Below, piece after piece: positions 50,258-55,499 of a DNA stretch of 64,000 bases. This stretch comes from Pseudomonas sp. 21. Lineage in GTDB: Bacteria > Pseudomonadota > Gammaproteobacteria > Pseudomonadales > Pseudomonadaceae. The DNA is taken from assembly GCF_000955805.1 (NCBI RefSeq), contig NZ_JYOA01000011.1, positions 10,786 through 74,785 of the forward strand, written 5' to 3'. The notes below the pieces were generated by a model. It saw only the letters and a list, made by a program, of their open reading frames with translations. It did no database searches and was not told where the DNA came from. Both the position numbers and the translations under genes were made by a program. Position 1 is the stretch's first letter. Each line of letters begins with the position of its first letter.

Positions 50258-51592
50258 TCACTCGCCCTTCAGGCCGTACTTCTTCACCTTGTCGAACAGC
50301 GTGGTCTTGGCCATGCCCAGGGCGTGGGCGGCCTGGCTGAGGTTGCCGGCGTGGCGTTCCAGGGCGGTGGACAGCAGGCTCTTCTCGAAGGCTTCCACGG
50401 CTTCGGCGAAGCGCGGCTCGCCGGCGTCCGGGCCGAGGTTGCCGCCGGCCAGCACCGGCAGGCCGAGGGCGAAGCGTTCGGCGACGTTGCGCAGTTCGCG
50501 TACGTTGCCCGGCCAGTCGTGGGCCATCAGGGTGGCGGCGGTGGCGTTGTCGATGGCGGGCGCCGGGCGGTCGAAGCGCAGCGAGGACTGCTGCAGGAAG
50601 TGCTCGAAGAGCATCAGGATGTCTTCGCGGCGTTCGCGCAGCGGCGGCAGGTTCAGGGTGATGACGTTGAGGCGGTAGTAGAGGTCGCTGCGGAAGGCGC
50701 CTTCGCGGCCCATGACGGCGAGGTCGGATTTGGTCGCGGCGATTATCCGGCAGTCCACGCGGATCAGTTCATTGGAGCCCAGGCGTTCCAGCTGCTGTTC
50801 CTGCAGCACGCGCAGCAGCTTGATCTGCAGGTTCAGCGGCATGCTCTCGATCTCGTCGAGGAACAGGCTGCCGCCGTCGGCGTGCTCGATCTTGCCGATC
50901 CGGCGCTTGCCGGCGCCGGTGAAGGCGTGGGCCTCATGGCCGAAGATTTCGCTGTCGATCAGGCTTTCCGGCAGGCCGCCGCAGTTGAGCGCGACGAAGG
51001 GCTTGGGCTGGCGCCGGCTGGAGTCGTGCAGGCAGCGCGCGACCAGTTCCTTGCCGGTGCCGGTCTCGCCTTCGATGAGCACGTTGGCGGAGGTGTCGGC
51101 GACGTTGGCGATCAGCTCGCGCAGCGCCTGCATGGCCGGCGAGCGGCCGATCAGCCGGCTTTCCAGGGCCTGCTTGCCGGCGAGCTGGCGGCGCAGCTGG
51201 CTGACTTCGCGGGTCAGCGCGCGCTGGGCCAGGGCGCGGCGTGCGGTGTCGACCAGCTTCTCCGGGGAGAAGGGCTTCTCCATGAAGTCATAGGCGCCGT
51301 CGCGCATGGCCTTGACCGCCATGGCGATGTCGCCATGGCCGGTGATCAGCACCACCGGCAGGCTGGGGTCGCGTTCCTTGAGCTTTTCCAGCAATTGCAG
51401 GCCGTCCATGCCGGGCATGCGGATGTCGCTGACGACGATGCCGGGGAAGTCGGCGCCGACTTTCTTCAGCGCTTCCTCGGCGCTGCCCACGCTGTCGGTC
51501 TCGATGTCCTCCAGGGCCAGCGCCTGCTGGCAGCCGAGCCGTACGTGCGGGTCGTCCTCGACGATCAGGACGCGCAGGGATGGATCGCTCAT
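50258..51592 (-). CDS. aauR: Sigma-54-dependent response regulator AauR
   Basis: 444 aa. Receiver domain with phospho-acceptor Asp56 (IVVSDIRMPGMDG), AAA+ domain with Walker A GETGTGKE (175-182) and GGSLFLDEIES, and a C-terminal Fis helix-turn-helix (GNLSQAAHALGMAKTTLFDK). The sigma-54 contact loop reads HAFTGA (222-227) instead of GAFTGA. Acts with AauS to activate the aat operon in response to acidic amino acids, binding TTCGG-N4-CCGAA sites. Overlaps the aauS stop by ATGA. Assignment as AauR rather than DctD rests on the aat/ggt context. Confidence 0.9.
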   Translation of the reverse strand: MSDPSLRVLIVEDDPHVRLGCQQALALEDIETDSVGSAEEALKKVGADFPGIVVSDIRMPGMDGLQLLEKLKERDPSLPVVLITGHGDIAMAVKAMRDGAYDFMEKPFSPEKLVDTARRALAQRALTREVSQLRRQLAGKQALESRLIGRSPAMQALRELIANVADTSANVLIEGETGTGKELVARCLHDSSRRQPKPFVALNCGGLPESLIDSEIFGHEAHAFTGAGKRRIGKIEHADGGSLFLDEIESMPLNLQIKLLRVLQEQQLERLGSNELIRVDCRIIAATKSDLAVMGREGAFRSDLYYRLNVITLNLPPLRERREDILMLFEHFLQQSSLRFDRPAPAIDNATAATLMAHDWPGNVRELRNVAERFALGLPVLAGGNLGPDAGEPRFAEAVEAFEKSLLSTALERHAGNLSQAAHALGMAKTTLFDKVKKYGLKGE

Positions 51593-53544
51593 GCGGGTGT
51601 CTCCAGGGCGGGCAGCAGCGGCAGGTGCAGCTCGAACGCGGTGCCGCCGGTTTCCGGGTAGGCCACGCCCAGGGAACCGCCGGCGGCGGTGGCGAGGCTG
51701 GCGGAAAGGGTCAGGCCCAGGCCCAGGCCGAGTTCGCCGGGCTTGGTGGTGAAGAAGGGCTCGAACAGGTGCACGCGGGCATCCGGCGGAATGCCGGGTC
51801 CGTTGTCGCGCACCACCAGGCGGTAGTGGCCGTCGCCTTCGCTGCGGCCTTCCAGCCAGAGCTGGCGGTCGGCTTGCGGGCCCATGGCGTCCAGGGCGTT
51901 GGCGATCAGATTGACCAGGATCTGTTCCAGGCGCGTCTGGTCGATGGCCAGGTGCGCATCGGGGTAGTCGCGGTGCAGGATCACCGGCACTTCGGAAAGC
52001 CGCCCCTGCAGCACCATCACGGCGGCGTCCACCGCCTTGCTCAAGGTCGCCTGGCCGTGGTCGTCGGCGCGCCGGGCGAAGGCGCGCAGGCTGGCGGTGA
52101 TGCGGCCCATGCGGTCGACCATCTCGGCGATGGCTTCGAGGTTGCTGCTGGCGACGTCGAGCTTGCCGCGCTCAAGGAAGCGCACGCTGTTGCTCGACAG
52201 GGTGCGCAGTGCCGCCAGCGGCTGGTTGAGTTCGTGGGCGATGCTGGTGGACATCTGCCCGATCACCGCCAGCTTGCCGGCCTGCACCAGGCGGTCCTGG
52301 GCCTTGCGCAGGGTGTCCTCGGCCTGCCGGCGTTCGCGGATCTGTTCGCGCAGGTGCTGGTTGCTGGCGCGCAGGTCGGCGGTGCGCTCGGCGATGCGGC
52401 GCTCCAGGGCGTTGTTGGCCTGCTCCAGTGCCTCACGGGCGGCGAGGCGGGTGGCGATGACCTTGCGCCGCTCGTTCCAGGCGATCAGCAGGAAGGCGAA
52501 CAGGGCGAAGCCGACGGCGGCCAGCACGCCGTGCATCAGCGCTTCGCGGCGCAGGTCGGCCAGCGGGGTGAGCAGGGTGAAGTTCCACGGCGTGTCGCTG
52601 AGCTGGCGCGTCTGCATCAGGTAGCTGAGCGGCTTGTGGCTGTCGGCGTGCTCGCCGGGCGGGAAGCTGATTTCCTCGACGCCGTCGCCCAGTGGCTGGC
52701 GCGACAGCGGCTGCCATTCGTTGAGCGCCCACCAGTAGTACTGCAGGCTGCGGGCGAGGCGTTCCTTGTCCTGGTCGCTGAGCGGACGCACGGCCTTCAG
52801 GCGCAGGGCGGGGTCGCTGGAGAGGATGATGATGCCGTTCTCGTCGCTGACGAAGGCTTGCAGGCGCGCCTTCTCCCAGCGCTCCTCGAGGGATTCCATG
52901 CGCACCTTGACCACCGCCACGCCGACGATCCTGCCGCCATGCACCAGGCCGTGGGCGAGGTAGTAACCGGGCTCGCCGGTGGTGCTGCCGATGCCGTAGA
53001 AGCGGCCGGGGCGGCCATTCACCGCTTCCTGGAAATAGGCGCGGAAGGACAGGTCTTCCCCCAGGTAGCTGTCGGCGTCCTGCCAGTTGCTGGTGGCCAG
53101 CACGCGGCCGGAGGTGTCCAGCAGGTAGACGGCGCGGCTGCCGGCGCGGCGGTTGAGGCCTTCCAGGTAATGGTTGACGCGGTCGCGGTGCAGCGGCGTC
53201 GGGTCTACCAGCAGGCGGCTGACGCTGCCTTCGAGTTCCAGCAGGCTGGGCAGGTAGGTGTAGCGGCTGATCTCGCTTTCCACGCCGCGGGCGTGCAGCT
53301 CCAACTGGCGCTCGCCGGATTCGATCAGGCTGCGGGTGCCGGCGCCTTCGCTGATCAGGTAGCCGCCGTAGCCGAAGCCCAGGGTGAGCAGGAGCAGCAG
53401 GAAGGGCAACAGGTAGTTGCGCACGAGGCGTGGCTTCACGGTGAGCGGCGGCGGCAATGGGCTGGAAGCGCATTGCAGCACAGTCGCCGGGGCCGAGCCA
53501 GCCCAACGCCGGGGGGCGGCGATGGACTGGCTCGGGTACCACAC
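51589..53544 (-). CDS. aauS: Sensor histidine kinase AauS
   Basis: Up to 651 aa. Two membrane helices (YLLPFLLLLLTLGFGYGGYL at ~44-63 and LAAVGFALFAFLLIAWNE at ~345) flank a ~280-aa periplasmic Cache-like sensor domain of the DctB type. Then come a coiled-coil linker, H-box STSIAHELNQPLAALRTLSS, N-box NLIANALDAMG and G-boxes DNGPGIPP and GLGLGLTLS. The true start is uncertain: the frame opens at a GTG (53544) and an internal GTG at 53439 sits just before the first helix. An inserted repeat element lies directly upstream. Confidence 0.9.
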   Translation of the reverse strand: MWYPSQSIAAPRRWAGSAPATVLQCASSPLPPPLTVKPRLVRNYLLPFLLLLLTLGFGYGGYLISEGAGTRSLIESGERQLELHARGVESEISRYTYLPSLLELEGSVSRLLVDPTPLHRDRVNHYLEGLNRRAGSRAVYLLDTSGRVLATSNWQDADSYLGEDLSFRAYFQEAVNGRPGRFYGIGSTTGEPGYYLAHGLVHGGRIVGVAVVKVRMESLEERWEKARLQAFVSDENGIIILSSDPALRLKAVRPLSDQDKERLARSLQYYWWALNEWQPLSRQPLGDGVEEISFPPGEHADSHKPLSYLMQTRQLSDTPWNFTLLTPLADLRREALMHGVLAAVGFALFAFLLIAWNERRKVIATRLAAREALEQANNALERRIAERTADLRASNQHLREQIRERRQAEDTLRKAQDRLVQAGKLAVIGQMSTSIAHELNQPLAALRTLSSNSVRFLERGKLDVASSNLEAIAEMVDRMGRITASLRAFARRADDHGQATLSKAVDAAVMVLQGRLSEVPVILHRDYPDAHLAIDQTRLEQILVNLIANALDAMGPQADRQLWLEGRSEGDGHYRLVVRDNGPGIPPDARVHLFEPFFTTKPGELGLGLGLTLSASLATAAGGSLGVAYPETGGTAFELHLPLLPALETPA

Positions 53545-53562
53545 GGTGCGCGCTCGCGGGCT

Positions 53563-53828
53563 TAGGGTTTGTTGGTGTTTCGGCGCGAGCCGCGTTGCTG
53601 CGCCAAATCACGCCAGGCTAGACGCGGGACGCCGGCAATGGCCATTCCCTTGCCTAGTCCCGCAACGACGCCTGGCGTGATTTGCCGCGCAACCCGAAGG
53701 GACGGAGCGGATTTTGCGCAGCGGCGTTCAATCAGTCGTTCGGATGTAATAACCATGCTTCTTCCTCGCGCCTTGCCCTGCGCAAAATTCGCTCCGTCGC
53801 GGCCGCGACGAAGCACCAACAGACCCTA
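53563..53828. mobile_element. MITE-like element with nested inverted repeats and TA flanks
   Basis: About 266 bp, non-coding. Terminal inverted repeats of ~31 bp begin TAGGGTTTGTTGGTG (53563 onward) and end in the complement of TAGGGTCTGTTGGTG (to 53828), with a few mismatches. Inside are two further inverted pairs: a perfect 14-bp pair, 53605-53618 with 53670-53683 (AAATCACGCCAGGC), and a 20/21-bp pair, 53701-53721 with 53778-53798. Both ends abut TA. Removing the element and one TA rejoins the ggt reading frame to a TAA stop. No ORF inside resembles a transposase, so mobilisation would be in trans by an IS630/Tc1-like enzyme (inference). Confidence 0.7.
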
Positions 53829-55499
53829 CTGCTTGACCACCAGCCCGACGCCGCGGCCGCGCGGATCGGAGGCGGTTTCCAGGGCGTTGCCGTTCACACG
53901 GATGGCCTGGATGTCACCCATGTTCCAGCCCTGGTCTTCCAGGGTGTAGCCCATGGCCTTGAGCTCGTCGGCGACCTTGCCGGTGAGCGGTGCGTACGCG
54001 TCGTAATAGATAGTGTCTTTCGGCAGCAGTTGGTGATGCACACGCTGCGCGGCCACGGCCTTCTCCAGGGGCAGGTGGAAGTCGTAGACGTTGTTCAGCA
54101 CCTGGAAGATCGAAGTGAAGATCCGCGAACCGCCGGGCGTGCCGAGCACCAGGCTGACATGACCGTCGCGGGTGACGATGCTCGGGCTCATGGAGGAGAG
54201 CATGCGCTTGCCCGGCTCGATGGCGTTGGCGTCGCTGCCCACTACGCCGAAGGCGTTGGCCACGCCCGGCTTGGAGCTGAAGTCGTCCATCTCGTCGTTG
54301 AGCAGGAAGCCGGCGCCCTTGACCACCACGCCGCTGCCGAAGTCCCAGTTGAGGGTGTAGGTGTTGCTGACGGCGTTGCCGTCCTTGTCGACGATGGAGA
54401 AGTGCGTGGTCTGGTGCGGTTCCAGGCCCGGGCGGACTTTCTCGGTGGCCGAGATGGCGTCCGGATTCACTTCCCCGGCGCGCTTGGCGATGTATTTCGG
54501 GTCGGTCAGCTGGGCCACCGGCACCTTGGAGAACTGCGGGTCGCCCAGGTAGTCGGCACGGTCGGCGAACACGCGCTTCTCGATCTCCGAGAGCAGGTGG
54601 ATGTACTTGGCGGAGTTCAGTTCCACGCCCTTGAAGTCGGCGGCGCGCTGTTCCTTGATGCCGATCAGCTGGGCCAGGGCGATGCCGCCGGAGCTGGGCA
54701 GCGGCGCGGTGTAGAGGGTATTGCCCTGCCAGTCGATGCGCATCGGCTCGCGCCACTGGGCCTTGTAGTCGACGAGGTCGTCGGCGGTGATCAGGCCGCC
54801 ATCCTGCTTCATCTGCGCGATGAGCAGCTTGGCGGTCTCGCCCTTGTAGAAATCGTCCGGGCCGTTGCCTGCGATGCGTTCCAGGGTCTTGGCCAGTTCC
54901 GGCTGCTTGAACACTTCGCCCGGCTTCATGGTGCCGAAGTAGTCGCCGAAGTTGGTCTTGCCGTTGAACAGCGCGATGGCGTCCTGGCGGTACTGGTACT
55001 GCTGGTCGGCGACCTTGAAGCCGCTCTGTGCGTAGCCAATGGCCGGGGTCAGCAGCTCGCTCCACTTCAGCTTGCCGAAGCGCTTGTGCGCCTCCCACAG
55101 GCCCATCACCGTACCCGGCACGCCGGCGGCCTTGGCGCCGACCAGGCTGAGGTTCTCGATCACCTCGCCTTTCTCGTTCAGGTACATGGTCTTGGTCGCG
55201 GCCTTCGGCGCGATCTCGCGGTAGTCGAGGAAGTACGGCTTGCCGTCGACGTACAGGGTCATGAAACCGCCGCCGCCGATGTTGCCGGCCTCGGGGTAGG
55301 TGACCGCGAGGGTGAAGGCGGTGGCGACCGCGGCGTCGACGGCGTTGCCGCCCTTCTTGAGGATCTCGGCGGCGACTTTCGCACCGTACTGGTCGGGGGA
55401 GGCGACCGCGCCGCCGTCGAGGGTGACGGCGAACACCGAAGAACTCGCCGCGAGGATCGCGACGCCCAGGGGCAGCTTGCTGAAGTGGAACACGCGCAT
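53826..55499 (-). CDS. ggt: Gamma-glutamyltransferase
   Basis: 557 aa. Periplasmic N-terminal nucleophile hydrolase with signal peptide (LGVAILAASSSVFA). Self-cleavage is expected before the nucleophile Thr364 (PHQTTHFSIVD); the small subunit has LNDEMDDFSS and SSMSPSIV. It hydrolyses glutathione and gamma-glutamyl compounds to release glutamate for the adjacent transporter. Its TAG stop is formed by the edge of the repeat element; before insertion the stop would have been TAA at the same codon. It lies 83 nt after aatP and is probably in the same operon. Confidence 0.95.
   Translation of the reverse strand: MRVFHFSKLPLGVAILAASSSVFAVTLDGGAVASPDQYGAKVAAEILKKGGNAVDAAVATAFTLAVTYPEAGNIGGGGFMTLYVDGKPYFLDYREIAPKAATKTMYLNEKGEVIENLSLVGAKAAGVPGTVMGLWEAHKRFGKLKWSELLTPAIGYAQSGFKVADQQYQYRQDAIALFNGKTNFGDYFGTMKPGEVFKQPELAKTLERIAGNGPDDFYKGETAKLLIAQMKQDGGLITADDLVDYKAQWREPMRIDWQGNTLYTAPLPSSGGIALAQLIGIKEQRAADFKGVELNSAKYIHLLSEIEKRVFADRADYLGDPQFSKVPVAQLTDPKYIAKRAGEVNPDAISATEKVRPGLEPHQTTHFSIVDKDGNAVSNTYTLNWDFGSGVVVKGAGFLLNDEMDDFSSKPGVANAFGVVGSDANAIEPGKRMLSSMSPSIVTRDGHVSLVLGTPGGSRIFTSIFQVLNNVYDFHLPLEKAVAAQRVHHQLLPKDTIYYDAYAPLTGKVADELKAMGYTLEDQGWNMGDIQAIRVNGNALETASDPRGRGVGLVVKQ

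Follow-up and report, generated by a model that had tools for sequence, protein, structure and literature searches.

The 266-bp segment at positions 53563–53828 of the window (the whole 64,000-nucleotide stretch of Pseudomonas sp. 21 DNA that was analysed) is, as judged by sequence comparison, a non-autonomous mobile element (MITE) that occupies the TA within the stop codon of ggt. With a probability of about 85%, it is an IS427-like MITE of the IS5 family, which a putative IS5 transposase would move in trans. Comparison shows the insertion at ggt, the TA flanks, the match of the ends, the dispersal of near-identical copies, the architecture and the distribution.

The element starts with TAGGGT and ends with ACCCTA; its parts and the host genes are listed in Table 1. 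As described in the first-pass annotation, terminal inverted repeats beginning TAGGGT, with TA at both termini, enclose two nested inverted pairs, one of which (53701–53721/53778–53798) is 21 nt long and 95% complementary, and the other was found to extend to 19 nt (53600–53618/53670–53688), also with 95% complementarity. The folding energy of the element was −168 kcal/mol (z −14); 200 dinucleotide shuffles gave −101.8 (sd 4.7), and no shuffle folded as well. Several open frames cross the element, and no sign of a gene was observed on inspection. Being under about 500 bp, having terminal inverted repeats and carrying no transposase gene, the element has the make-up of a MITE. Dispersal of copies to unrelated sites and relatives with an empty site, which also characterize MITEs, were found as described below. 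In the surroundings of ggt, genes for a sensor kinase and a sigma-54 response regulator lie downstream and one for an ABC transporter ATPase lies upstream. The names ggt and aauSR are labels of the first-pass annotation, and the kinase is known here by its domains alone.

Table 1. Parts of the element and host genes next to it (window positions)
Feature	Position	Strand	Remarks
Left TA (one of two TA copies)	53563..53564	.	TA on both sides; relatives with the empty context have one TA
Left terminal inverted repeat, outer stem P1	53565..53594	+	Family consensus GGGTCTGTTGACGTTTCG
Hairpin unit P2, with conserved internal loop and CCCGAAGGG joint	53591..53702	+	Match to model R1, E 1.3e-28
Small hairpin CCCGAAGGG between both units	53693..53701	+	Highly conserved
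Hairpin unit P3	53701..53798	-	Opposite-strand homologue of P2 in better-conserved copies
Right terminal inverted repeat, outer stem P1'	53798..53826	-	
Right TA	53827..53828	.	With the terminal G of the element (53826), forms the present TAG stop of ggt
ggt (gamma-glutamyltranspeptidase), host gene, stop codon carries the insertion	53826..55499	-	PF01019, E 1.4e-176
Sensor kinase gene (aauS of the first-pass annotation), downstream	51589..53544	-	HATPase_c and dCache_1

Orthologues of ggt in 17 genomes of the same genus (L073–L089) all lacked the element at the stop codon, and in 15 of these genomes, the exceptions being G012 and G017, the kinase-side sequence directly adjoins ggt. Inspection by eye showed that the stop codon was TAA in 15 of the element-free orthologues and TGA in 2, and the exact pre-insertion context, TTACTG, was present in two (L081 and L086). 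Removal of the element together with one TA leaves CAG TAA, as had been pointed out earlier, and the proposal of a TA-flanked insertion on the ggt stop is borne out by the single TA in the empty context of the relatives and by the absence of the element from the 17 orthologues. The first-pass annotation had suggested looking for empty ggt-kinase sites in relatives and for copies at other loci, and both exist. A second copy in the same genome (L002, G000:C6:35060-35324) is 81% identical over positions 2–265, and matches were found in 19 of the 25 genomes of the genus, its own included, with up to 14 per genome when partial and palindromic matches are counted. A separate observation was made in G021, in which an independent copy of the family (L008:1498-1769) lies one gene upstream in the same operon, in the gap between the ABC-transporter gene and ggt.

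The site of the second copy has an empty counterpart in G016, with flanks 98–99% identical. At this counterpart, a small GC-rich palindrome (ACGGGGCC...GGCCCCGT) was found; the comparison shows no clean TA duplication, and about 6 bp differ at the junction. For one copy of P. oleovorans, the corresponding site of P. indoloxydans was examined as a possible empty site, and it was filled in both.

Flanking sequences were compared among near-identical copies at unrelated sites. TA was present on both sides at all 7 loci in G257 (context Y-TA..TA-R), at all 5 loci with both ends readable in G104 (always C-TA..TA-G) and at all 3 loci in G297, these three being genomes of the same order as that of the window, and also in all 8 copies of G014. 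These recent copies and the copy in the window thus have a 2-bp TA target duplication. TA does not flank every copy, and such a rule was rejected; many of the copies from the window's genus have GA..TC, CA..TG or AA..TT as their outermost bases, which are paired and contain no TA. In G114 (L166–L169), copies with the same core have GAGCCTGTT ends, and the flanks TTA, TCA and TAA correspond to TNA at 3 of the 4 loci; at least two types of transposase must therefore take part.

The ends of the element, TA followed by GGG(T/C)CTGTTGACGTTTC, match those of 842–861 bp insertion sequences of the IS5 family (IS427-like) from Azotobacter and Paracoccus. When a 32-base terminal query was compared with plasmids, MITE copies were found in P. 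aeruginosa and Halomonas, and IS5-family ends were found in A. chroococcum and Paracoccus. The IS5 elements of the A. chroococcum plasmids (L234 and L239) are 859–861 bp long with terminal repeats alike at 16–17 of 18 positions, and the Paracoccus element (L237) is 842 bp long; all three are flanked by TA and have TAGGG(T/G/C)CTGTTGACG ends. For one further IS5 locus (L235), no second end was recovered. The transposase belongs to NCBIfam IS5_3 (E 2.5e-82). A copy named ISAba31 (L382, 862 bp) has one end TAGGGTCTGTTGACATTT, and a relative from Alteromonas has the end TAGAGGYTGTTGATC. Members of the IS427 group are 832–865 bp long, and 2-bp duplications are given for them in 10 of 11 rows from a published table, ISPha1 having 4 (PMC3281130); for ISPsp10 of this group, TA is duplicated (PMC4133298). 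From these features we infer that the partner elements belong to the IS427 group. This group (IS1248, ISPsp10; ISAba31-type) resembles the element in the GGG(T/C)CTGTTGAC-type ends of the copies read and in the TA duplication, and is unlike it in carrying a transposase (about 832–865 bp) and in having no P2/P3 hairpins at the ends of the copies read.

The element and IS5 copies occur together in other species. An A. chroococcum plasmid (CP010421) contains both a MITE copy and the matching IS5, and the closest element-partner pairing found was in P. oleovorans (L306), where a deleted IS5 copy of 684 bp and a MITE copy, 47 bp apart, share the GTTGCC end variant. No IS5_3 relative was found in the genome of the window, and the 25 genomes of the genus gave one weak match only (E 3.8e-5, G017); the partner was therefore taken from other species, from which an IS5 transposase is the presumed mover of the element. 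With no IS5_3 match in this genome, its copies, that in the window included, are probably now stranded. For the copy ends in G257 (GGGGGCGTTCTC) and G104 (GTACTCTTTCC), no IS5 partner was found.

The first-pass annotation had proposed an IS630/Tc1-type MITE instead. IS630 prefers CTAG, and the TA flanks and CTAG-like context of the copies would fit such an origin. The carrier G257 has 62 matches to DDE_3, with a few more in G104 and G297, and one IS630 type of G257 has TAAGTACTC ends, GTACTC being common to it and the G104 copies. However, the three IS630 types read in G257 end with TAAGTACTCACG, TAAGTAGGTCATAG and TAAACCGCGCCC, unlike the element copies in that genome, DDE_3 had no match in G014 and G022 (the two genomes of the genus that were tested) or in G114, and the GGGTCTGTTGAC ends match IS5 elements. 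IS630 was rejected as the partner of the GGGTCTGTTGAC ends on the basis of the G257 IS630 ends and the lack of DDE_3 matches in G014, G022 and G114, and this part of the earlier proposal, which we consider very unlikely, gives way to an IS5-family, IS427-like origin. The 62 DDE_3 matches of G257 are contained in one genome of 5.2 Mb and represent at least three TA-flanked IS630 types, an observation in its own right.

For an IS427-like MITE of the IS5 family, the following mechanism is proposed. An IS5-type transposase would recognise in trans two GGG(T/C)CTGTTGAC-type ends, and the element would enter TA, which would be duplicated, with YTAR preferred in two lineages read. Because the element begins with G, insertion in the TA of a stop codon, be it TAA or TAG, would rebuild TAG and leave the protein unchanged, as at ggt. 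A TA-targeting element with an initial G would have a harmless landing on the stop codons of GC-rich genomes.

Orientation and neighbouring genes were tallied with gene calls made by simple base-composition rules. Removal of 18 copies with a predicted ORF overlapping them and of 1 at the edge of a contig left 39 of the 58 copies of the genus, representing 28 usable sites; 20 of these sites were in tandem in one orientation, 4 were in tandem in the other and 4 were divergent, such that one orientation accounts for 20 of the 24 tandem sites (p 0.0015). Of the 24 genus sites into which a gene runs, 15 have a stop codon no more than 4 nt from the element; the same proximity was found for 22 of 158 TA sites (14%) that are non-coding or belong to stop codons, all of them from the window, a single 64-kb stretch. 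Some of the abutting stops may belong to genes cut short by the TAG of the element itself. TA is mostly coding in the window, which has 67% GC (664 of 822 sites). Outside the genus, one sample gave << 3, >> 4, >< 5 and <> 4 (29 loci taken, 13 dropped), and another gave << 8, >> 6, >< 6 and <> 5 (45 of 80 loci given, 2 lost and 25 tallied, L252 and L302 being one shared site), neither with a bias. Orientation bias as a property of insertion was rejected, the samples from other genera being without bias. The simplest reading of the pattern in the genus is retention, in which stop codons offer harmless targets and the initial G rebuilds TAG.

Full-length copies, 58 in number, were aligned. In a 42-sequence alignment, 65 of the 88 consensus pairs were changed on both sides with pairing kept in at least one sequence, and the loop motifs and the CCCGAAGGG joint were highly conserved. 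The two hairpins are, as judged with a covariance model, homologous and inverted relative to each other, which is clear only with such a model. Model R1, built from the left hairpin P2 only, found the right hairpin P3 in 17 of 29 sources, on the strand opposite to that of P2 and with E values down to 1.7e-13; the opposite-strand match was the left palindrome itself in 5 sources, the window copy included, and there was none in 7. In the window copy (L001), the P2 model gave no match to P3 at E 1e-6, and pairwise alignment of P2 and P3 gave a z of 5.5 in the best of 8 copies and near 0 in several. Since the P2 model matches P3, the element can be read as a terminal repeat, a hairpin unit, an inverted hairpin unit and a terminal repeat.

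One-unit copies were also found in G257, together with a 38-bp copy of the terminal repeats alone. This 38-bp copy has a full-length copy nearby whose ends are different (L208 and L179, near G257:C1 position 1945529). In P. oleovorans (G857) and P. indoloxydans (G856), many palindromes of approximately 60 bp consisting of terminal repeats only were recognised by eye from adjacent partial matches, and among the matches listed they were, by eye, at least as numerous as the full-length copies.

The core is coupled to several kinds of ends, namely GGGTCTGTTGAC with TA, GAGCCTGTT with TNA, and GTACTCTTTCC and GGGGGCGTTCTC with TA. We infer that the stems remain paired either because a hairpin of DNA or RNA is under selection or because arms are copied from each other as templates. 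A conserved selfish or functional module, recognised by protein or RNA and spread across the class and beyond by hitch-hiking on different transposases, appears rather doubtful to us as an account of the hairpin pair. It is possible, though not the account we favour, that pairing is maintained by arm-to-arm copying without selection, the element being otherwise a plain IS5 MITE. Quasi-palindrome template switching is a mechanism for such copying. In the stems, double transversions are frequent and unpaired intermediates few, which fits arm-to-arm copying (pair 52/123, CG 24 and GC 16; pair 154/237, GC 12, UA 11 and CG 9). One double transversion was found even between two 96.7% identical copies of one genome (L011 and L025), and in a copy with the right hairpin P3 only (L170, G257:C1:25728-25882), the arms match over a longer stretch than those of full-length copies. 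However, arm-to-arm copying leaves the class-wide conservation of the loops unexplained.

A regulatory role of the element on its neighbours, including ggt-aauSR, is possible as far as can be read from sequence, although no sigma-70-like or intrinsic-terminator-like site was found in the window element. In its stronger form, the element would owe its retention to an operon function, as a structured RNA or an intercistronic regulatory element, and its mobility would be incidental. Such a role would accord with the 65 of 88 pairs that have two-sided changes with pairing kept, with the conserved loops, and with the shared orientation in 20 of 24 tandem genus sites (p 0.0015) and the stop within 4 nt in 15 of 24. 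Among the 39 site representatives, G.T exceeded A.C on the plus strand (P2, 32:2; P1, 49:22; P3, 18:6), and the consensus fold of the alignment was better for this strand (−129.0 vs −88.4), which together would suggest selection on the plus strand. However, those mismatches read A.C on the mRNA strand of the favoured orientation, and the two strands do not differ in total folding energy (p 0.74 for the 39 site representatives and p 0.13 for 17 others); selection on plus-strand RNA was thereby weakened as a candidate, the G.T excess having no counterpart in the folding energies of the two strands. The lack of orientation bias in other genera and the empty ggt site in 17 relatives also argue against it, and Rfam models gave no match to the window copy, up to E 1 over window positions 53400–54000. 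We consider a role of this kind unlikely, and a mobile IS5-type MITE is retained as the preferred reading.

The element is apparently undescribed. A literature search, with supplements, most subscription journals and ISfinder outside its scope, yielded no description recognised as this element. Five of six strings from the ends or the core do appear in published text (eight papers), in one case within primers (PMC12457610). Correia elements and ERIC are TA-flanked, palindromic, non-autonomous intergenic repeats, and they differ from the element in sequence, size and hosts. The element could hardly be one of the known repeats of Pseudomonas (REP/BIME, REPIN, an R-family repeat, MITEPsy1/2 or a TIME), even though it is likewise palindromic, intergenic and multicopy. 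MITEPsy1 of P. syringae is also short, non-autonomous and thought to be derived from IS5, with CTAG or YTAA as the target, and has been shown to transpose in vivo; by its description, however, it is 100 nt long with GGAAGGTCTGAAAAAGCC ends and a 4-nt duplication, and no paired-hairpin core appears in the text available to us (PMC3189936). MITEPsy2 differs, again by description, in its GGGGGTGTAAGCC ends (PMC3189936), and the R families, as described, are 50–352 bp long with other inverted repeats (PMC2718517). TIMEs, which are derived from Tn3, come close in being 262 bp long and non-autonomous with predicted folded transcripts, but have 38-bp repeats of the Tn3 type and duplications of 5–6 bp (PMC4133298).

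Among the genomes sampled, model searches detected the core in 55 of 293 from the order, representing 32 of 118 genera (R1, E 1e-5), in 85 of 274 genomes of the class, representing 70 of 222 genera (R2, E 1e-6), and in 76 of 299 genomes of the phylum, representing 36 of 153 genera, Pseudomonas relatives included. Copy numbers per genome are lower bounds, with at most 12–13 candidates scored per genome and stricter filters applied. Carriers among the matches listed included Azotobacter, Stutzerimonas, several Pseudomonas, Salinicola and Chromohalobacter. No match to the element was found in phage records, nor an exact TAGGGTCTGTTGACGTTTCG in viral contigs. MITEs are usually seen as decayed insertion sequences whose interior carries no meaning. 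In the present family, one inner architecture, comprising two inverted homologous hairpins with paired stem changes and fixed loops, occurs with different ends in 70 of the 222 sampled genera of the class. Such a recurrent architecture needs explaining, by a function or by a mechanism of copying, and lends itself to a natural test of structure selection versus arm-to-arm copying; in addition, a model of the family could annotate many intergenic stretches that are now blank.

Of 11 class-level loci, 8 were delimited (3 were too short); five end with AGGGCCTGTT, one with AAGGCCTGTG and two with AGAGCCT. A primer used for the deletion of lpg2920-21 in Legionella contains TTTAGGGTCTGTTGAC, which is like the ends of the family or of its IS5 partner (PMC12457610).
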